A DNA stretch of 17,357 nt. Origin: Candidatus Delongbacteria bacterium. GTDB taxonomy: Bacteria > UBA4055. Shown here one piece after another: positions 1-17,155 of this stretch. The stretch is from contig JAFGVM010000047.1 in assembly GCA_016937995.1 (NCBI GenBank), positions 1-17,357 of the forward strand, in the 5' to 3' direction. The notes under the pieces were generated by a model, which saw only the letters and a program-made list of their open reading frames with translations, searched no databases and was not told the DNA's origin. Within the stretch, counting starts at the first letter, position 1. Every line of letters begins with the position of its first letter. The translations under genes and the position numbers were made by a program.

Positions 1-986
1 AACTTAATTCATTTCTAAATCAGGATGATCCTGATTATGCAGGATTTGAGAATTTAGGAAAGACTGAACTGATAGTAGAAGAAGCAAGAAAATATCACAT
101 TCAGCAGGTACTTGATATTCCTTACATTAACAAATCCGGTATAAGGAAGAGGAATTTTAAAGTGGCAATAGACTGTGTCAATGGAGCTGGAAGTGTTATT
201 CTTGCAGACCTTTTGATCGATCTCGGATGCAGTGTCGCAAAGATAAACTGCACACCAAACGGGATATTTCCTCATGGTGCAGAACCTTTACCTGAGAACC
301 TGACCGAAATTTGCGAATTCATAAAAGAAGGTAATTTTGATATCGGTATGGTCGTTGACCCCGATTCAGACAGATTGGCACTGATATCTGATGCCGGTGT
401 TCCATTGGGTGAAGAATATACTCTGGCCATGGTAGCAGACCTTTTACTTGATAAGATAAATACTGATATAGTCGTAAATATTTCAACATCCAGAGTTATT
501 GAAGACATTGCAAAGAAAAATTATAAGAAGATCTTCAGAACTAAAGTTGGAGAAATTAATGTCTCTACTGAAATGATAAAAAGAGGATGTCTGATCGGTG
601 GAGAAGGGAATGGCGGAGTGATATTACCTCAGATCCATCCCGGGAGAGATGCTTTGGTAGGAGCGGGATTGATCCTTCAGTACTTATTTGAAAAGGACAG
701 CTTTGTTACGAATATATTCAATGACCTTCCTCAATATATGATAGTTAAAGACAAAGTTTCTGTCGAGAACATCGATTTTGATGCAAAAATGCAAATTATA
801 CTTGATGGTGAGGATCCTGAAAATATAGATGATATTGATGGAATTAAGATAAATCATGAAGAATATTGGGTACAATTGAGAAAATCCAATACAGAACCGA
901 TCGTAAGGATTTTCGCGGAAGCAAAGACAAAAGAAAAGGCGGAAGAGATTGTTAAAATATATAAAGATAAACTCATTGGTCAGTAA
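1..986 (+). CDS. glmM: Phosphoglucosamine mutase (GlmM-like phosphohexomutase), 5'-truncated
   Basis: This is the C-terminal part, about 327 residues, of an alpha-D-phosphohexomutase. The frame is open from base 3, so the gene begins upstream of the window and the GTG at 162 is internal. The metal-binding loop DPDSDR, the sugar-specificity loop GGEGNGG and the C-terminal phosphate loop RKSNTEP are all present. The catalytic phosphoserine region is missing because it lies before the window. The run around GEEYTLAMVAD and the GEGNGG form resemble Bacteroidetes-type GlmM more than E. coli GlmM. GlmM converts glucosamine-6-phosphate to glucosamine-1-phosphate, the precursor of UDP-GlcNAc for peptidoglycan and lipid A, which fits lpxB three genes downstream. 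A phosphomannomutase or phosphoglucomutase role cannot be excluded from this fragment. The gene runs 38 bases into the TTG start chosen for the next gene. Confidence 0.85.
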   Translation, partial: LNSFLNQDDPDYAGFENLGKTELIVEEARKYHIQQVLDIPYINKSGIRKRNFKVAIDCVNGAGSVILADLLIDLGCSVAKINCTPNGIFPHGAEPLPENLTEICEFIKEGNFDIGMVVDPDSDRLALISDAGVPLGEEYTLAMVADLLLDKINTDIVVNISTSRVIEDIAKKNYKKIFRTKVGEINVSTEMIKRGCLIGGEGNGGVILPQIHPGRDALVGAGLILQYLFEKDSFVTNIFNDLPQYMIVKDKVSVENIDFDAKMQIILDGEDPENIDDIDGIKINHEEYWVQLRKSNTEPIVRIFAEAKTKEKAEEIVKIYKDKLIGQ

Positions 987-2238
987 AGTACTTCGAATAC
1001 CTTTGTTTATATACATCGTAACTATTACTCTACATGTGTATTCTCAACCGGAGAAGACATTAATGTTCGATGAAACATATACGACCGGGCTACCTGTTTT
1101 CAGGTATAATATTGTTAGGTTATTCAATGAAAAAGACGGTTATTTTGATCTTAATGTTCAAACAGAGATAACAAATGAGAGACTTCATTTTTTAAAAAAA
1201 GGAAGTGAATACACTTCAACTTACGTGATATCAGTGGCTGTCTTTGAAAGGGGTAAAACAAATGATATACCTTTATCCCAAAAATCTGAAAAAACAGTAT
1301 ATTCAACTAAAAATTACTCTGAAACCCAGTTAAACAAATCAAATAAAAAACACAACTATATATTTTCAGTACCTGAAGGTTCTTATTCAGTCGTATTACT
1401 TATTACCGACCAGAACAGTAAGAAAGAATTCAAAGTAAAAAAAGAGATCGAATTTTCTTTGAAAGAGGATCCGGCAATATCAGATCTTCAAATGGTCAGC
1501 TGGAACGATGATGATAATTTTCTAAACGACTACACTCCTAACATAAACAATATAATTGATAAGAAGAACAGCTTCACCGGAGCTCTTTTTGAAATTTATT
1601 CAGTTGATGCTGTTAATGTTTCATACAGCATCGAATATAAAATAATTGACAGAAAAGGAAGTATCCTTTATCACGACACGTTCAAGGATATTTTAAAGGA
1701 TAATCTTCATTATCAGGTATTAAAGATACCTTTGGATAAATTCAATATCGGGAATTTCAAGATCGAACTTAAAGTTGATTTTCCTGAAACGACAATTGAA
1801 AGAGAGAGTACTTTTTATTTGAGATGGAAGGACCTTTCACTTAATATTTCTGATATTTCGGTAGCTATAGAACAAATGCTTTACCTGATGGATTATGATT
1901 CACTTAAACCTGTATTCAATTATGATGAAGAGCAGAAAAAAATATGGTTTCAGAACTACTGGAATGATCTGGAGACAAATCTAAAGCTGAAAAAAAATTC
2001 CCTGATGGAAGAATATTACCGCAGGATATCATTTGCCAATATAAATTTTTCAGTTCCTTTAAAAGAAGGATGGAAAACAGATATGGGTAAAGTACTTTGC
2101 ATTATGGGTGATCCTGATGAAGTACAAAGTTACAGTTTTACAAGAAATTCCCGACCGTATGAAGTTTGGATATATTATGAATACGGTTCACAATATATTT
2201 TTGATTATATCAGTGGTGAATTCAGATTAAGAAAATAG
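949..2238 (+). CDS. Secreted GWxTD domain-containing protein (first copy)
   Basis: A predicted exported protein of about 429 residues and unknown function. A signal-peptide-like N-terminus (hydrophobic IPLFIYIVTITLHVYS followed by Gln) leads into a beta-rich middle region. The C-terminus has a helical stretch (QNYWNDLE, then YYRRISFANINFS) and the GWxTD motif as GWKTD at about residues 374-378, followed by MGDPDEVQSY and an aromatic tail ending EFRLRK. That order is the hallmark of the GWxTD family, common in FCB genomes and uncharacterised. No ATG fits the start. TTG 949 has AAGGCGG at 936-942, whereas TTG 976 gives a tighter signal peptide but a poor ribosome site, so the start is uncertain. 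The gene overlaps glmM and is probably co-transcribed with it. Its paralogue lies at 12963-14513. Confidence 0.85.
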   Translation: MLKYIKINSLVSKVLRIPLFIYIVTITLHVYSQPEKTLMFDETYTTGLPVFRYNIVRLFNEKDGYFDLNVQTEITNERLHFLKKGSEYTSTYVISVAVFERGKTNDIPLSQKSEKTVYSTKNYSETQLNKSNKKHNYIFSVPEGSYSVVLLITDQNSKKEFKVKKEIEFSLKEDPAISDLQMVSWNDDDNFLNDYTPNINNIIDKKNSFTGALFEIYSVDAVNVSYSIEYKIIDRKGSILYHDTFKDILKDNLHYQVLKIPLDKFNIGNFKIELKVDFPETTIERESTFYLRWKDLSLNISDISVAIEQMLYLMDYDSLKPVFNYDEEQKKIWFQNYWNDLETNLKLKKNSLMEEYYRRISFANINFSVPLKEGWKTDMGKVLCIMGDPDEVQSYSFTRNSRPYEVWIYYEYGSQYIFDYISGEFRLRK

Positions 2239-4308: not shown

Positions 4309-5709
4309 TTATAAACTGGTTATTGAGAATAATTTATTTTTTTCTTTGAACTCATGTACTTTTTGGTCGATCTCTTCTATCTGAGTTAGAAAACGGGCGT
4401 ATTTTTCGCCGGTCAATTTAGGTGTTGCGATCATTCTTTTCAGTAACGGGTTAGCCCATTTTCCCTTATTGTCCTTGATCCCGAAATGCAGATGTGGCCC
4501 GGTAACTCTTCCTGTTCTTCCAAGTTTAGCTATCTGTTGTCTTGCTTTGACTGTCTGACCTTTTTTCACGAGACTTTTATCAAGATGGATGTAATAAGTT
4601 TTAGTTCCGTCCGAATGTTTAATAACAACTTTATTGCCATTTAATTTATCATATCCTGAATAGATCACTTTTCCTTTTGCAACTGCATAGACTGGATCTC
4701 CAATATGACCTCTGTAATCGACACCTGAATGGAACGATCTTTTACCTGTAACTGGATGTCTTCTTTGCCCGAATGTGCTTGTAACATGGATCTTGTCCAC
4801 CGGTAATCTTAGTGCGGAATGGATCAGAGCTTTTCCATCTTTAGTGTAGTGGGCATTGTAAGCAGACAAAGGATCGGTGTCGTCAAATCTGAAAGCTTCA
4901 TGAAATCCGCTTCTTCTACCTGAATAAGAAACATAATGTATCTTTCCGCCAGATAATTTATGACCTTCAAAATAATATTCTTCCATGAATACAGTGAACT
5001 GATCTCCCAATCTTGCATCTGTCCTGAAGTTAACAACACATTCAAGAATGCCATTGATCTCCTGACTTGTTGAAACAGGTATATCACAATCGAGTAGTGC
5101 CTGATTCAATGTTGTTTCGATCTTTCCTGTCAAAAACCTGTTCCTTGTTTCTACAGGCAGAGATATTTTTTCATATTCATAATTTCCTTCAGGATCTTTG
5201 GTCAATTTATGGGTTGTAACAACATCAGGTTTAAATTCAAACTCAATAACATTGGTTTTAGTGGAATCGTAAACCACTTTAAACTCTTCACCTGCTTTCA
5301 AAAAACGGAAATCGACATGAAATCTCAGTGCATTTGAAATTTCCATTGCATGTCCGATAGAAATACCATCAACTGCTATTAAAGAATTCGTAAACCCTTC
5401 ATTTGGAAGGATAGAACCGCTTAGTCTATAATTGTTTTCTGTAGGAGACTTTTCTAGTAAACTGTCAGGTATTATCTCATTTTTTATATTCACTGAGTCT
5501 TGAACCATTGCCTGCCCTGAATCAAAGGAGCATAAAACAACTACTGAGAATGCTATCAGCGCTATCGCAGCCACCAGATTATGATGATGAGTGACAATAA
5601 AGTTTTTTATAACTACTCCATCTTGTTTATTGTGGTCAATCGATGTAAAAAATAAGAAATATTTTATCAGAAAGCAAATATAGGTTAAAAATGTTGAGTT
5701 TATATCCAT
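4309..5709 (-). CDS. M23-family peptidoglycan endopeptidase, membrane-anchored
   Basis: A 466-residue LytM/M23 zinc metallopeptidase that would cleave peptide cross-links of peptidoglycan in the periplasm. The C-terminal catalytic domain (about residues 305-425) has HPVTGKRSFHSGVDYRG with zinc ligands His327 and Asp331, YYIHLD with His375, and GPHLHFG with His406 and His408, so all active-site residues are present. Residues 95-270 resemble the propeptide-like domains of Csd3/MepM-type enzymes, which can regulate access to the active site. Two hydrophobic stretches occur before residue 65 (about 7-22 and 45-62). The second looks like the real anchor, but no convincing in-frame start lies between them, so ATG 5709 is kept. 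It is divergent from rpsA, and a candidate extended -10 element overlaps the rpsA promoter. Confidence 0.93.
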   Translation of the reverse strand: MDINSTFLTYICFLIKYFLFFTSIDHNKQDGVVIKNFIVTHHHNLVAAIALIAFSVVVLCSFDSGQAMVQDSVNIKNEIIPDSLLEKSPTENNYRLSGSILPNEGFTNSLIAVDGISIGHAMEISNALRFHVDFRFLKAGEEFKVVYDSTKTNVIEFEFKPDVVTTHKLTKDPEGNYEYEKISLPVETRNRFLTGKIETTLNQALLDCDIPVSTSQEINGILECVVNFRTDARLGDQFTVFMEEYYFEGHKLSGGKIHYVSYSGRRSGFHEAFRFDDTDPLSAYNAHYTKDGKALIHSALRLPVDKIHVTSTFGQRRHPVTGKRSFHSGVDYRGHIGDPVYAVAKGKVIYSGYDKLNGNKVVIKHSDGTKTYYIHLDKSLVKKGQTVKARQQIAKLGRTGRVTGPHLHFGIKDNKGKWANPLLKRMIATPKLTGEKYARFLTQIEEIDQKVHEFKEKNKLFSITSL

Positions 5710-9972: not shown

Positions 9973-10641
9973 CTAAGCTTTTCCAAGCTTCCATCTACTG
10001 ATCGCTTTGAAGAACATGAGCACAGTGAACGGCACAGTGAAATCACCTTCCATCAACCTGTTAGTTGTTGATAGGATCAACCATGCTTTTTCGATATCTT
10101 TAGCTCTGTAATATTTTAAGAATATAGCCATTAATCTTTTTGAGAATACTTTAAATCTGTTGTTATTCATTATTAAATTTACAGCACCTGTGTAATATTC
10201 AACTCCAGCTTCTGTATGAAACCAGCCTTCAGTTGCTTCCGGTTCACCCTGTGATTTTATAATTTCAGCTATTTCATCATCTGTAAAAGAGAATTCATTG
10301 AATTCATCTGTTGAGAAGAAGTTAAAGCTTTCACTGTTGAACAGATCAGGATCTTCGTCATATTTTTTTCCAATGGCTGCATGAGGCCCCATCAGGTCCA
10401 TTGATGCTTCCATAATGGTCTTCTGCATTGCAGGACTTCCGAAGTATGAACCTACACTTTCTTTAACAGTTTCCTGCTTTTTTTGTGTAAAAGCCTCAGA
10501 CACCTGATAATATGTACAGTCTATACATTCTTCATTTCTATTCTTTGCACAACATACAGGACAGATCAGTGCACCGTTTTTTAATTTACAGATTCTCTTT
10601 CCTGCCTTTGCATCACAAAATGAGCATTTTACTTTAGCCAT
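9973..10641 (-). CDS. Conserved hypothetical protein with N-terminal cysteine-rich zinc-binding-like domain
   Basis: A soluble 222-residue protein of unknown function, with no signal peptide or membrane segment. The first 45 residues hold eight cysteines (6, 9, 18, 27, 30, 31, 39, 42) arranged CSFC, RICKLKNG, ICPVCC, CIDC, then TYY. This recalls a widespread uncharacterised N-terminal motif (R-C, G-x-IC-x-x-CC, R, C-x-x-C-x-Y) that probably binds zinc. The remainder is mostly helical with an acidic middle (DPDLFNSESFNFFSTDE) and no recognised catalytic motif. The ATG start has AGGA shortly upstream. The convergent neighbour is the transglycosylase and the upstream neighbour is the hybrid kinase, 107 bases away on the same strand. 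The two could share a transcript, but that gap shows no clear terminator or strong promoter. Confidence 0.75.
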   Translation of the reverse strand: MAKVKCSFCDAKAGKRICKLKNGALICPVCCAKNRNEECIDCTYYQVSEAFTQKKQETVKESVGSYFGSPAMQKTIMEASMDLMGPHAAIGKKYDEDPDLFNSESFNFFSTDEFNEFSFTDDEIAEIIKSQGEPEATEGWFHTEAGVEYYTGAVNLIMNNNRFKVFSKRLMAIFLKYYRAKDIEKAWLILSTTNRLMEGDFTVPFTVLMFFKAISRWKLGKA

Positions 10642-12449: not shown

Positions 12450-12959
12450 TTAATTGTCAATTGTCTCTTCCTTCATCCCTTTAGCCATTAAAAAACCCAC
12501 AGCACGTTCTTTGAGCTTAAATCTGTTGATCAGTGACCTGAAATCTTTTCCATGATTTGGAACCAATAAATGAGCGATCTCATGTATGATAACATAGTCC
12601 ATAACCCACTTGGGATATGTAGCCAGAACCGGATTAATAACTATCTTTCTCTGTCTTGTATAGCACTTACCCCAGGTGCGCAACAGAGTTCCTTGAAATT
12701 CTATGGAGTAATCAGGTGCTTCGGGGATAAATTTTTTCTTGAGCTTTAGAGATCTTTTTAAAAGTTCATCATCATTGTTCAAAATTATTTCTTTAAGTTC
12801 AAGCTTCTCTAAAAATTTATTCAAAAAAGCTTTAATATCCCCGTCCGATGTGTGATGAGGAGCAAGTATCTTAACTGTATTATCTCTTAGAGAAGCCTGT
12901 AAAGTCTTTTTTCTACGTTTTGACCTTTTAACAATGATCTCGTATTTATCAGAAATCAT
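12450..12959 (-). CDS. YgjP-like (DUF45) metallopeptidase-domain protein
   Basis: A 169-residue protein of the YgjP/DUF45 group, related to SprT-like and M48-type zincins. The zinc motif is HEIAH at 126-130 (IIHEIAHLLVPNHGKDF), with His136 as the probable third ligand. TWGKC near residue 95 matches the family's conserved W-G-x-C segment, and INPVLATYPKWVMDYVIIHE is typical. No signal peptide is present, so it is probably cytoplasmic. Family members are presumed metal-dependent proteases and their substrates are mostly unknown. It is somewhat short for the family (about 230 residues) and lacks part of the N-terminal region. It starts 3 bases after the GWxTD gene stop, so it is the last gene of the minus-strand operon. 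Assignment to the family is firm; proteolytic activity is inferred. Confidence 0.85.
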   Translation of the reverse strand: MISDKYEIIVKRSKRRKKTLQASLRDNTVKILAPHHTSDGDIKAFLNKFLEKLELKEIILNNDDELLKRSLKLKKKFIPEAPDYSIEFQGTLLRTWGKCYTRQRKIVINPVLATYPKWVMDYVIIHEIAHLLVPNHGKDFRSLINRFKLKERAVGFLMAKGMKEETIDN

Positions 12960-12962
12960 AAA

Positions 12963-14513
12963 TTAATAAATTTCCTTTTTGATCTTTTCTTCCCAGTTCG
13001 GATCGTTCTTTTCACCTGTAAAATTGGAATGTATCAGAGAAAATTCGCCGAAACCATGGGTATCCGCAAAGACGAAAGTATAGTTCCCGTTGAAATAAGA
13101 CCAGATTTCATGATCCTGAGAATCGGTTGAATAAGTTTCCTTATCTATCTTATCCGGTGCACCATGAGTGATCAATATCCTGCCTCTATCTGTCTTCCAT
13201 CCTTCTTTATTTCCCAAAGAATATTCTTTATTGGCCAGATTTACATTATATAAAAATTTCTCTCTTGCATCAGGATCATCTCTCTCTTTTGTTTCCCAGA
13301 ACCTTTTTAAAAAATTGACTTTACCTTTGTCATTTAATTTGTCCGCTAAGTTCCTATCCTTTTTATCAAGAATGGTATACACCTGTTCAAATTCTTCAAG
13401 CATACTCTTATCACTTAGAACATCAACATTTTTGCTGTAATCCTTGTTTGCAAGATCAGAAAAATACTCGAATTTCTCTTTTTTGAACTTGTCATCATAT
13501 TTAGTTTTTTCTACCCAGTAATCAATAAGGAAAGATCTTTTTGCCTCCAACCCGTTCTTTTCGAACTCATCTGATCTATCTGCGGTAATATCCTTTGAAA
13601 TATTCCTGATCTCATTATCAATGGTTTTTTCAGTCAGTACTTCAATTGCATTACTCAGATCTTCAAATTTCATTTCCGCTTTTTCTCTGAAATCCAGAGT
13701 TCTGTATATATAGAAATTATTACTGCTTTCTATAGTTGACCCGTTCTTTGATACTTCCAGATTAAAGTCATACAATCCTGTTTTTAGACTCTGAATAGGT
13801 ATTTGATCCGCGAGTACGATCGCATTTCCAGGTGCTTTTTTTGATTTTGAATTCCCTTCCTTGATCTTTATCCCATCTTTATCACTGATAGACCACTTAT
13901 AATCAACACTGTTTCCTGCCTGCAATCCGTATACTTCTGTATAGTAATACAAGAAAGGTCTTCTGGTACCGAATACTTTACTCGGGTTCGGAAGGACGAT
14001 CACACCCTGCTTGAAGAACTCTGATTCTTTTTCAATATCGTTTGTAATTATTTTAGAAGCCAGTTGTATTGTGGAAAGGGAGAATTTATCATGGAATTTT
14101 GCAACAGAAAATTTCTTTGAATTTTGAGGAATATCTATTGTTTCTACATTCTTTGATTTAAGATCTTCGACCTCAGCAAGCAACCTGTAATATCCCGGAT
14201 CAAGATACATTGTGGATAATGCCGGTATTTCATTACCTGAGAATTTATCGTTTTCACTTTTCAGGGTATATTTTTGCTTCCATTTATCTTCTGCAATTAG
14301 CTTTTCACCATCATAAACATATAACTTGATCGCAAATACACTTTCGGATGTCTTATCAAATTCTAATGATTGTACCGGTATTGATACATAAATATCAACC
14401 TTTGTTTTATCAAGTCTTTCTCTGTCATAACAGGCATAATCCAAATAAAATACTCCCTTCGCGAGTAATACTGGAATGAATAATAATGTAACTAGATAAA
14501 TATATTTTCTCAT
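12963..14513 (-). CDS. Secreted GWxTD domain-containing protein (second copy) with internal duplication
   Basis: A 516-residue predicted exported protein of unknown function. A signal peptide (MRKYIYLVTLLFIPVLLAKG) precedes a beta-rich region to about residue 275, then a charged helical region. The GWxTD motif is GWKTD at 438-442, followed by ITHGAPDKID, HEIWSYF and an aromatic tail. The helical module just before the motif (401-432: FLKRFW, DDPDAREKF, LANKEYS) is also present at 328-360 (FLIDYW, DDKFKKEKF, SDLANKDYS), about 72 residues earlier and without its own GWxTD. The paralogue at 949-2238 has one such module. The start overlaps the NlpC/P60 gene stop by 4 bases (ATGA), implying coupled translation. 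A role in the periplasm or at the cell surface is likely; no activity can be assigned. Confidence 0.87.
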   Translation of the reverse strand: MRKYIYLVTLLFIPVLLAKGVFYLDYACYDRERLDKTKVDIYVSIPVQSLEFDKTSESVFAIKLYVYDGEKLIAEDKWKQKYTLKSENDKFSGNEIPALSTMYLDPGYYRLLAEVEDLKSKNVETIDIPQNSKKFSVAKFHDKFSLSTIQLASKIITNDIEKESEFFKQGVIVLPNPSKVFGTRRPFLYYYTEVYGLQAGNSVDYKWSISDKDGIKIKEGNSKSKKAPGNAIVLADQIPIQSLKTGLYDFNLEVSKNGSTIESSNNFYIYRTLDFREKAEMKFEDLSNAIEVLTEKTIDNEIRNISKDITADRSDEFEKNGLEAKRSFLIDYWVEKTKYDDKFKKEKFEYFSDLANKDYSKNVDVLSDKSMLEEFEQVYTILDKKDRNLADKLNDKGKVNFLKRFWETKERDDPDAREKFLYNVNLANKEYSLGNKEGWKTDRGRILITHGAPDKIDKETYSTDSQDHEIWSYFNGNYTFVFADTHGFGEFSLIHSNFTGEKNDPNWEEKIKKEIY

Positions 14514-15010
14514 CTTATGATCCTCCTTCCTGCTATGAATTTATTTTTAAAATAGTAATCATCGAGACTGCTTATCATAACACCCCTGGATGTTGATGCA
14601 TGCCCGAACTTACCATCCTTTAAATATACACCAACATGTGAAATACCTCTACCGTTCGTATTGAAGAAAACAAGGTCACCGTATGAAAGTTCAGCTTTTG
14701 AAATATGTCTTCCGTAATAATATTGTTTTTGGGCAGTTCTGGGAAGATTAACTCTATATATCTCTTTGAATAATGCCATCACGAATCCACTGCAGTCAAA
14801 TGAATTTGGCCCGGAAGCACCTAATACATACTTTGCTCCGTAGTGTTTCTCAATGAATTTTTCAATGATCTGGGCATCTTCAGCATCCTCTTCTGTGATC
14901 TGTTGTTTCTGCTGATTGTAATACTGATGTGATGATACTGAAGAGCATGACACAAAGATCATTGAAAAGGCCATTATAAAAGGTATGAAATATTTTATTG
15001 TTCTAGTCAT
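14510..15010 (-). CDS. NlpC/P60 family peptidoglycan hydrolase lipoprotein
   Basis: A 166-residue cysteine peptidase of the NlpC/P60 class, predicted to cut the peptide stem of peptidoglycan. The N-terminus has a basic start, a hydrophobic core and a lipobox-like FVSC, so Cys22 would be the lipidated residue after processing by LspA. After a short linker rich in Gln and Glu, the catalytic domain (about 48-166) shows FDCSGF with Cys73, SHVGVY with His125 and FGHAST with His137, so the triad is complete. RTAQKQY and LSYGDLVFF are typical family motifs. No cell-wall-binding domain is fused; this is a minimal Spr/NlpC-like enzyme. It lies 24 bases downstream of pgi and overlaps the GWxTD gene by 4 bases. 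Confidence 0.93.
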   Translation of the reverse strand: MTRTIKYFIPFIMAFSMIFVSCSSVSSHQYYNQQKQQITEEDAEDAQIIEKFIEKHYGAKYVLGASGPNSFDCSGFVMALFKEIYRVNLPRTAQKQYYYGRHISKAELSYGDLVFFNTNGRGISHVGVYLKDGKFGHASTSRGVMISSLDDYYFKNKFIAGRRIIR

Positions 15011-15034: not shown

Positions 15035-16633
15035 TTATCCCATAAGGTGATTCAACAACCCTTTAGTTGAGCAGTCATGAGATTCCGGTATCTTTCCATC
15101 ATTCATTTCATTTTGAATAATATTTGCAAGTTGCTTACCGTATTCCACTCCCCACTGATCAAAGCTGTATATATTCCATATTATACCCTGAACAAAAATC
15201 TTATGTTCATAGATCGCTATAAGCTTTCCAAGAGTATTTGGGGTCAGTTTATCGTAGATAATTGAGTTTGTGGGATGATTTCCTGAAAATACCTTATACG
15301 GTGTTCCATCTTTAATATCATCAATTGTTCTGCCTTTCATCAATGCCTCAGTCTGACCAAGGAAATTTGACAGAAGGATCTTATGATGTTTATTTATTCT
15401 GTTCAATGGTTCTTTCGCTACAAGAAAATCAGCGGGGATCATTCTAGTTCCCTGGTGTATCAATTGATAGAACGAATGTTGACCGTTCGTACCCGGTTCC
15501 CCCCATATCACAGGACCAGTAGAATAATTCAAAGTCTTTCCTTCCCTGTCCACACTTTTTCCATTACTCTCCATATTGGCCTGTTGCAAATAAGCAGGGA
15601 ATCTGTGTAAATATTGATCATAAGGAAGAACAGCCTCACTATCTGTTCCAAAGAAATTTATATACCAGATGCTGATAAGAGCCAATAGAACCGGAATATT
15701 ATTTTCGAAATCTGTATTCTTAAAATGCTCATCTATGGAAGAAGCACCGGACATCATCTCTTCAAAACGGTCATAGCCAATATATAAAGCAATGCTCAGC
15801 CCGATCGCTGAGAATAACGAGTATCTTCCACCGATAAAATCCCAGAATTCGAACATGTTTTCAGTATCAATACCGAACTCCTCGACTTTTTCCTTGTTGG
15901 TAGACAATGCAATAAAATGTTTTTTTATGGTATTTTCATCTCTTGTATTTCTCAGGAACCATTCTCTTACTGAATAAGCATTTGTCATGGTTTCCTGAGT
16001 TGTAAAAGTCTTGGATGCGATCAGGAACAATGTCTCTTCATGGTCTAAATTCTTCAGTATTTCAGTTATTTCAGTTCCGTCTACATTTGAAATAAAATCT
16101 ACTTTGATATCTTCAGAACCATAGAATTTTAAAGCCTCTGTGACCATTGCAGGACCAAGATGTGATCCACCGATACCTATATTTACAATATTTTTAATTT
16201 TCTTTCCGGTATACCCTCTCCATTCTCCGCTTCTGACAGCATCACTGAATATTCTCATTTTTTTTCTGACATCTCTGATCAAAGGCATAATATCCTGATC
16301 ATCAACGTAAATTGGATCATGAGAAAAATTCCTCAAAGCAGTATGAAGGACAGCTCTGTTCTCAGTTTCATTTATCTTTTCACCAGAGAACATTTTGTCT
16401 ATTGAATCTTTTAAATTGCATTCTTTCGCAAGTCCGATCAATAACTGCTTCGTTTTCTCAGTGATAATATTTTTTGAGCAATCTATGAGTATATCTTCAA
16501 ATTGGAATGAAAAGTCATTGAATCTTTGGTCATTTGCGAAAAGATCACGCATATGAACTGATTTCATCTCAGCAAAATGGTCTAATAATTTCTGCCAGCT
16601 TTTTGTCTTTACGGGATCTACTTTACTAAGCAT
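15035..16633 (-). CDS. pgi: Glucose-6-phosphate isomerase
   Basis: A 532-residue cytoplasmic enzyme interconverting glucose-6-phosphate and fructose-6-phosphate, close in length to E. coli Pgi (549). Motifs in order are [11 protein letters not shown] (152-161), [10 protein letters not shown] (206-215), the family signature [13 protein letters not shown] (267-278), the catalytic glutamate Glu355 in [10 protein letters not shown], His386 in GTNGQHSF, and Lys500 in [11 protein letters not shown], the second signature. The active site is therefore complete. Fructose-6-phosphate feeds glucosamine-6-phosphate synthesis and thus UDP-GlcNAc, so the place in an envelope operon is metabolically sensible, though pgi position varies between genomes. 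It starts 12 bases after lspA ends and is followed 24 bases later by the NlpC/P60 gene. Confidence 0.97.
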
Positions 16634-16645
16634 AATATATCCATC

Positions 16646-17155
16646 TTATTGATTTGTATGAGGTTCGTCTTCCTTCTTTTCAAAAAATAAGTACTGTACC
16701 GACAACAGGACCATTCCCACTGTTACGAATGAATCAGCTATATTGAAGATCGGCCATCTTGTCATTATTATGTCAGGGAAATCACAGTCAATAAAGTCGA
16801 TCACTTTGCCATACAATGCCCTATCGATCAAATTTCCTATAGCTCCTCCAAGAATAAAGCTAAATGCCCAGAGTTCAAGTTTCTTTTTAATGTCGATCTT
16901 CAGGATCAAATAAATTACAAATATTGAAGCAATTAAAGAGATCGCTGATAAAAAATACCTGCTTCCGAGTTTGATACTGAAAGCTATTCCGGTGTTATAA
17001 GCAAGAGTGAACCTGACTAATTCTTCACCAAAGACATTAATTGAGTTTGAGTCCAGTGAAAGTAAGAACTTCTCTAAGAATTTTTTAGATACTTGATCGG
17101 CAATAATGATTATTGCCGATACTGAAAAAAATATTGTCTTTTTACTAAATGTCAT
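16646..17155 (-). CDS. lspA: Lipoprotein signal peptidase (signal peptidase II)
   Basis: A 169-residue integral membrane aspartic protease with four hydrophobic segments (about 7-22, 66-86, 94-110, 137-157). It removes signal peptides from prolipoproteins after diacylglyceryl transfer. Diagnostic motifs are ADQVSKKF, TLAYNTGIAFS, GGAIGNLIDR, VIDFID with catalytic Asp120, and WPIFNIADS with catalytic Asp141. Two predicted lipoproteins in this window, the NlpC/P60 protein and the lytic transglycosylase, are likely substrates. It is the first visible gene of the minus-strand operon; upstream lies a repeat region reaching the window edge, with no clear promoter found. Confidence 0.96.
   Translation of the reverse strand: MTFSKKTIFFSVSAIIIIADQVSKKFLEKFLLSLDSNSINVFGEELVRFTLAYNTGIAFSIKLGSRYFLSAISLIASIFVIYLILKIDIKKKLELWAFSFILGGAIGNLIDRALYGKVIDFIDCDFPDIIMTRWPIFNIADSFVTVGMVLLSVQYLFFEKKEDEPHTNQ

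Follow-up and report, generated by a model that had tools for sequence, protein, structure and literature searches.

The locus considered here raises the question of whether a protein encoded immediately behind a predicted cell wall endopeptidase, with overlapping stop and start codons, is a dedicated partner of that enzyme or a protein with a wider task in the cell envelope. The window (the whole stretch of DNA that was analysed, 17,357 nucleotides of the Candidatus Delongbacteria contig JAFGVM010000047.1) carries on its minus strand the gene of a MepS (Spr)-like NlpC/P60 lipoprotein (14510..15010; PF00877, E 3e-29), that of a predicted exported protein of 516 aa from the GWxTD family, here called GWxTD_A (12963..14513; PF20094, E 2.6e-10; TIGR04514, E 1.1e-20), and that of a YgjP-type zinc metalloprotease (12450..12959; PF01863, E 2.5e-19). 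It was suggested in the initial annotation that these three genes, if conserved together, define an envelope module in which the GWxTD protein serves the enzyme as a partner, regulator or scaffold. Neither a functional description nor a real mention of the GWxTD family (PF20094 / TIGR04514) was found in the open-access papers searched; the present analysis describes the division of the family into two types, the two Ig-like domains of its members and the operon of Delongbacteria.

Conservation of the nlpC-GWxTD_A pair in Delongbacteria

The stop codon of nlpC and the start codon of GWxTD_A share the bases ATGA (14510..14513, minus strand), and ygjP follows GWxTD_A after a gap of 3 bases; these features, and the three-gene arrangement as such, were confirmed in the sequence. 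The overlap was rightly called the closest coupling in this operon, since the junctions upstream are looser, with 24 bases between nlpC and its upstream neighbour, the gene of glucose-6-phosphate isomerase (pgi; 15035..16633, minus strand, PF00342), and 12 bases between pgi and lspA (16646-17155), which lies beyond it. A GGAGG motif is present 8 bases 5' of the GWxTD_A ATG, within the last codons of nlpC, and the codons that bear it specify two consecutive Arg residues that do not vary within the family. Comparison with 10 relatives revealed a purine-rich, Shine-Dalgarno-like stretch at the same place, so that GWxTD_A appears to have its own ribosome-binding site besides the overlap. The overlap itself is kept in every genome, with a length of 4 bases or, in one case, 7. 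In genome G001 (L034, 3113-5173) Pgi and NlpC were found in one continuous frame of 686 aa, the pgi stop being missing and the nlpC start being in frame, which reflects either a fault in the assembly or a genuine fusion with an internal start.

Sequence relatives from named genomes come almost entirely from Candidatus Delongbacteria. The Delongbacteria sample comprised 13 genomes, all of one family. Every one of them has a GWxTD gene, the A type being missing only from G005, and NlpC is found directly before GWxTD_A in 12 of the 12 genomes in which a search with an NlpC-protein profile located it. Each of these 12 has a single gene for the MepS-like protein, and the only other NlpC/P60 match among them is a weak one in G009. 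Within the phylum this pairing is not the product of chance: nlpC and GWxTD_A form a real operon feature that one phylum has conserved. The genome without GWxTD_A is also the one without NlpC; G005 is 97% complete and may have lost both genes jointly, although one missing contig could also explain their absence because the two are adjacent.

Conservation extends to genes further downstream. All 10 contigs that extend beyond GWxTD_A carry YgjP directly behind it. The fourth member of the conserved string is a zinc-ribbon-like protein of 222 aa whose N-terminus is rich in Cys (9973..10641 on the minus strand of the window); in 9 contigs of the phylum it is encoded two to four genes further down from GWxTD_A. 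The two deepest genera are represented by G004 and G007, whose GWxTD_A has 32-38% identity with that of the window. In them the unit of NlpC, GWxTD_A, YgjP and the 222 aa protein has been retained while the other flanks differ; Pgi, which is upstream of NlpC in most genera, is absent from this position. Within Delongbacteria the trio is conserved, and nlpC and GWxTD_A are adjacent more often than by chance. To call it an envelope trio is nevertheless a poor description, because YgjP and the 222 aa protein look cytoplasmic. YgjP scores above its family cut-off (70.5 bits against 26 for PF01863) and has its HExxH motif in the form HEIAH, and neither it nor the 222 aa protein, for which Pfam and NCBIfam searches returned zero matches, has a signal sequence. 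YgjP is thus no obvious envelope partner, and the conserved unit mixes probably exported with cytoplasmic-looking products.

Predicted properties of the paired proteins

The NlpC protein has a signal sequence with a lipobox cysteine (C22) and, judged from its sequence, an NlpC/P60 peptidase domain with a putative catalytic Cys-His pair and a third polar residue (C72, H125 and H137); these three residues and C22 are invariant in 9 Delongbacteria sequences. The lipobox and the Cys-His-His arrangement are shared with the E. coli DD-endopeptidase lipoprotein MepS (Spr), and the MepS model PRK10838 is the best NCBIfam match, but because the score of 111.5 bits falls below the equivalog cut-off of 186 we refer to the protein as MepS-like and not as MepS, from which it also differs in having GWxTD_A as its genomic partner. 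GWxTD_A has a signal sequence as well, with no lipobox. On the basis of these signal sequences and of an N-terminal helix in the predicted structure of GWxTD_A, both proteins are probably exported.

A second GWxTD gene, which did not figure in the finding of the initial annotation, is located on the plus strand of the window (GWxTD_B, 949..2238; TIGR04514, E 1.2e-25), and the two are the only GWxTD genes of this genome. Both proteins contain a GWKTD motif and score above the curated cut-offs of Pfam (40.8 bits for GWxTD_A and 62.7 for GWxTD_B, cut-off 26.9) and NCBIfam (74.1 and 90 bits, cut-off 28). They share the same architecture. In both AlphaFold2 models (pLDDT 90.2 for GWxTD_A and 87.7 for GWxTD_B) a hydrophobic helix at the N-terminus precedes two Ig-like sandwiches, and the C-terminal domain has helices first and strands after them; in GWxTD_A the signal segment would span residues 1-18, the Ig-like domains 19-138 and 142-276, and the GWxTD domain approximately 375-500, with a helical segment before it. 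A sequence search for a solved relative of the whole GWxTD protein or of the GWxTD domain returned none. Comparison of the Ig-like parts with PDB structures, which for GWxTD_A covered residues 19-276, gave matches to RbmA, to the carbohydrate-binding domain of Wzt, and to sandwiches of GH2 enzymes and transglutaminases. The Wzt domain was the top match for both models (Z 10.8 for GWxTD_A and 12.3 for GWxTD_B, rmsd 2.4-2.9), and tandem Ig-like domains as predicted in the GWxTD proteins are likewise a feature shared with RbmA and the Wzt domain. Because several unrelated Ig-like domains are near ties, these matches indicate a fold and not a ligand. Those to GH2 enzymes fall in their non-catalytic Ig-like domains.

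In a comparison of 94 GWxTD domains, the residues that never vary are W, G, G, P, W and F, and no conserved set of His, Cys, Glu or Asp was found; since the invariant residues are structural and a catalytic set is lacking, this argues against the domain being an enzyme. The helical stretch before the GWxTD core is duplicated in GWxTD_A of the window's genus only (approximately 70-80 aa; 13416..13658 on the minus strand, approximate bounds). Profile positions 298-369 match twice in G000 and G001, the insertion being absent in other genera, and the two copies align at a score of 85, against 67 or less in 300 shuffles.

The profile of the GWxTD domain gives weak but recurrent matches to BamE (SmpA/OmlA, PF04355). 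The pattern of the domain, G-W-x-T-D-x3-V...G-x-P...E-x-W-x-Y...F-x-F-x-D, has the elements G-x-T...V...G-x-P...W-x-Y...F in common with BamE, and its predicted order of two helices and three strands is that of BamE, which is built in the order helix-helix-strand-strand-strand; unlike BamE, it forms the C-terminus of a large non-lipoprotein. Overall, hhalign comparisons of the GWxTD core with BamE-like profiles gave probabilities of 39-68% and scores of 22-26 over only 23-37 columns. With nine BamE and BamE-like proteins the score was 25.1 (probability 59%), against maxima of 16.3 among 263 unrelated profile windows and 14.1 among 30 column shuffles. A set of 15 sequences scored 26.3, or 22.3 on cleaned columns against 16.8 or less in 100 shuffles, the columns of this control having been cleaned as one raw shuffle had given an impossible 128.7 over 4 columns. 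The likeness was not seen with five typical BamE sequences alone, and it depends in part on single sequences, the score falling to 18 when L183 is left out. PF04355 was not among the families listed for the 94 GWxTD domains, which only the GWxTD Pfam model recognises, and no BamE match was obtained in any of the Delongbacteria genomes. We regard the resemblance to BamE as suggestive.

GWxTD paralogues and their neighbourhoods in other phyla

GWxTD genes were surveyed with up to approximately 7-8 kb on each side in four further groups of genomes, labelled P15, P19, P42 and P57 after the genome used as the centre of each, and in single genomes of others. This yielded 108 GWxTD genes, 84 of them from outside Delongbacteria. 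Two halves are apparent in a tree of 107 GWxTD proteins, and in an unrooted tree of 90 proteins, built without long-branch rows, the A and B sets lie on opposite sides of one branch with an SH-aLRT of 97. Delongbacteria, P15, P19, P42 and P57 are represented in both clades. Most genomes of the first four have exactly two GWxTD genes, while the 82 genomes of P57 (G057, G061-G141) have from 2 to 19 each, a strong lineage expansion. The GWxTD proteins are hence two ancient paralogues, A and B, and in four of the five phyla sampled a genome usually carries a single copy of each.

In none of the stretches fetched around the 84 GWxTD genes outside Delongbacteria was there a match to YgjP or to the Delongbacteria NlpC profile. 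The proposal of an FCB-wide trio of NlpC, GWxTD and YgjP is for this reason unsupported and was rejected on the basis of the survey; the conservation and the adjacency that hold inside Delongbacteria do not carry over to the other genomes surveyed. A Pfam census of 99 direct neighbours of GWxTD genes was dominated by housekeeping and regulatory families, and outside Delongbacteria most direct neighbours are housekeeping genes, which vary from one phylum to another (SMC, FtsY, MtaB, PurN/PurH, GatB). In P19 the A-type genes are flanked by SMC and an ABC-transporter gene; adjacent A and B genes are common in P15 and P42. In P57 and P19 the B-type gene belongs to a string of FtsY, MtaB, GWxTD_B, an S66 LD-carboxypeptidase, PurN and PurH, with MreB further down (L067, L070, L137-L146 and L161-L178). 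The S66 gene, whose product is without a signal sequence, directly follows GWxTD_B in 21 of 27 such loci, in two phyla. In the window the GWxTD_B gene lies between glmM and the gene of an MBL-fold hydrolase, with lpxB after the latter, and the order GlmM, GWxTD_B, MBL-fold is kept throughout Delongbacteria. A convergent gene for an M23 endopeptidase (4309-5709) was also observed near this locus.

Four A-type loci (L047, L049, L051 and L069) are near genes for a protein of approximately 1000-1150 aa, a PorV-like outer-membrane barrel and another large protein, of approximately 800-1000 aa, from a shared family; one of the large proteins at these loci has a weak match to a type IX sorting domain. 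A link of GWxTD_A with the T9SS was considered and dropped, since only a few A-type loci lie near a large secreted-type protein and a PorV-like barrel and most do not.

The role of GWxTD_A

The reading that we prefer, and to which we would give about an even chance, is that GWxTD_A is an exported, probably non-enzymatic binding or adaptor protein with a general role in the envelope, which is co-produced with a MepS-like endopeptidase only in Delongbacteria. After cleavage of its signal the protein would consist of two Ig-like beta-sandwich domains and a C-terminal alpha-alpha-beta-beta-beta domain that weakly resembles BamE, and its basic job, for which NlpC would not be needed, would be to serve as an adaptor or in assembly, either at the outer membrane or at the peptidoglycan. 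That this task is general is suggested by the ancient A/B pair and its usual presence as one copy each in FCB phyla, and since other phyla keep GWxTD genes with no NlpC neighbour, GWxTD_A is more probably a general binding protein of the envelope than a dedicated part of a wall-cutting module. In Delongbacteria its gene would have become locked behind that of the endopeptidase lipoprotein, so that the two products may be made together and in coupled quantities, both ending up on one side of the inner membrane; the start/stop overlap and the internal ribosome-binding site point to such linked production. Of the role first envisaged, a non-catalytic binding or adaptor function fits the predicted structure.

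It is possible, although we think it rather doubtful, that GWxTD_A is instead a dedicated partner of the MepS-like enzyme, which it would bind and either dock at sites of wall growth or present for degradation, coupled translation serving to match its amount to that of the enzyme. The model for this is NlpI of E. coli, a TPR-like lipoprotein homodimer that acts as an adaptor of MepS, directs MepS to Prc for proteolysis and serves as a scaffold for endopeptidases (PMC7049810), its control of MepS and scaffolding of other endopeptidases having also been described elsewhere (PMC5686067, PMC11211486). The single MepS-like enzyme of each genome, always adjacent and overlapping, the probable export of both proteins and the lack of both genes in G005 are in keeping with this, but GWxTD_A is older and far more widespread than the pairing, the enzyme is near none of the 84 GWxTD genes elsewhere, and the double absence in G005 may be due to a lost contig. 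Any likeness to NlpI would be confined to a possible role as exported, non-enzymatic partner of a MepS-like enzyme, as GWxTD_A has Ig-like domains and a GWxTD domain, no lipobox and no TPR match.

The pairing could also be an inherited gene order in a sample drawn from a single family, the two proteins being co-expressed and otherwise unrelated in their roles. We consider this unlikely. Unrelated genes do accompany nlpC and GWxTD_A (in all genera YgjP and the cytoplasmic-looking 222 aa protein, in most also Pgi), GWxTD_B is held just as tightly between GlmM and the MBL-fold gene, and elsewhere GWxTD genes are found in housekeeping strings; on the other hand, the four-gene unit has outlived the replacement of its flanks in G004 and G007, and the start/stop overlap has been retained in every genome. 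That GWxTD_A is itself an enzyme, for instance one that hydrolyses peptidoglycan or glycans together with NlpC/P60, is very improbable, for although wall enzymes adjoin GWxTD genes both here and, in two other phyla, at the 21 loci with S66 behind GWxTD_B, the domain has no conserved catalytic set and the parts that can be compared match binding sandwiches.

A broader and quite speculative idea, to which we attach only a small likelihood, is that GWxTD_A and GWxTD_B form a periplasmic two-protein system ancestral to the FCB phyla, which with its Ig-like domains and BamE-like tail would organise growth of the cell wall and outer membrane and would be tied by different phyla to different wall enzymes. 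If this were true, the ties would be to NlpC/P60 and GlmM in Delongbacteria and to the S66 LD-carboxypeptidase and the MreB region elsewhere. Nearly every genome sampled from several FCB phyla contains GWxTD proteins, and the A/B paralogy of these proteins, together with the locking of one paralogue to the only NlpC/P60 protein of a phylum, leads to testable ideas: that they may bind a wall endopeptidase, peptidoglycan or each other.
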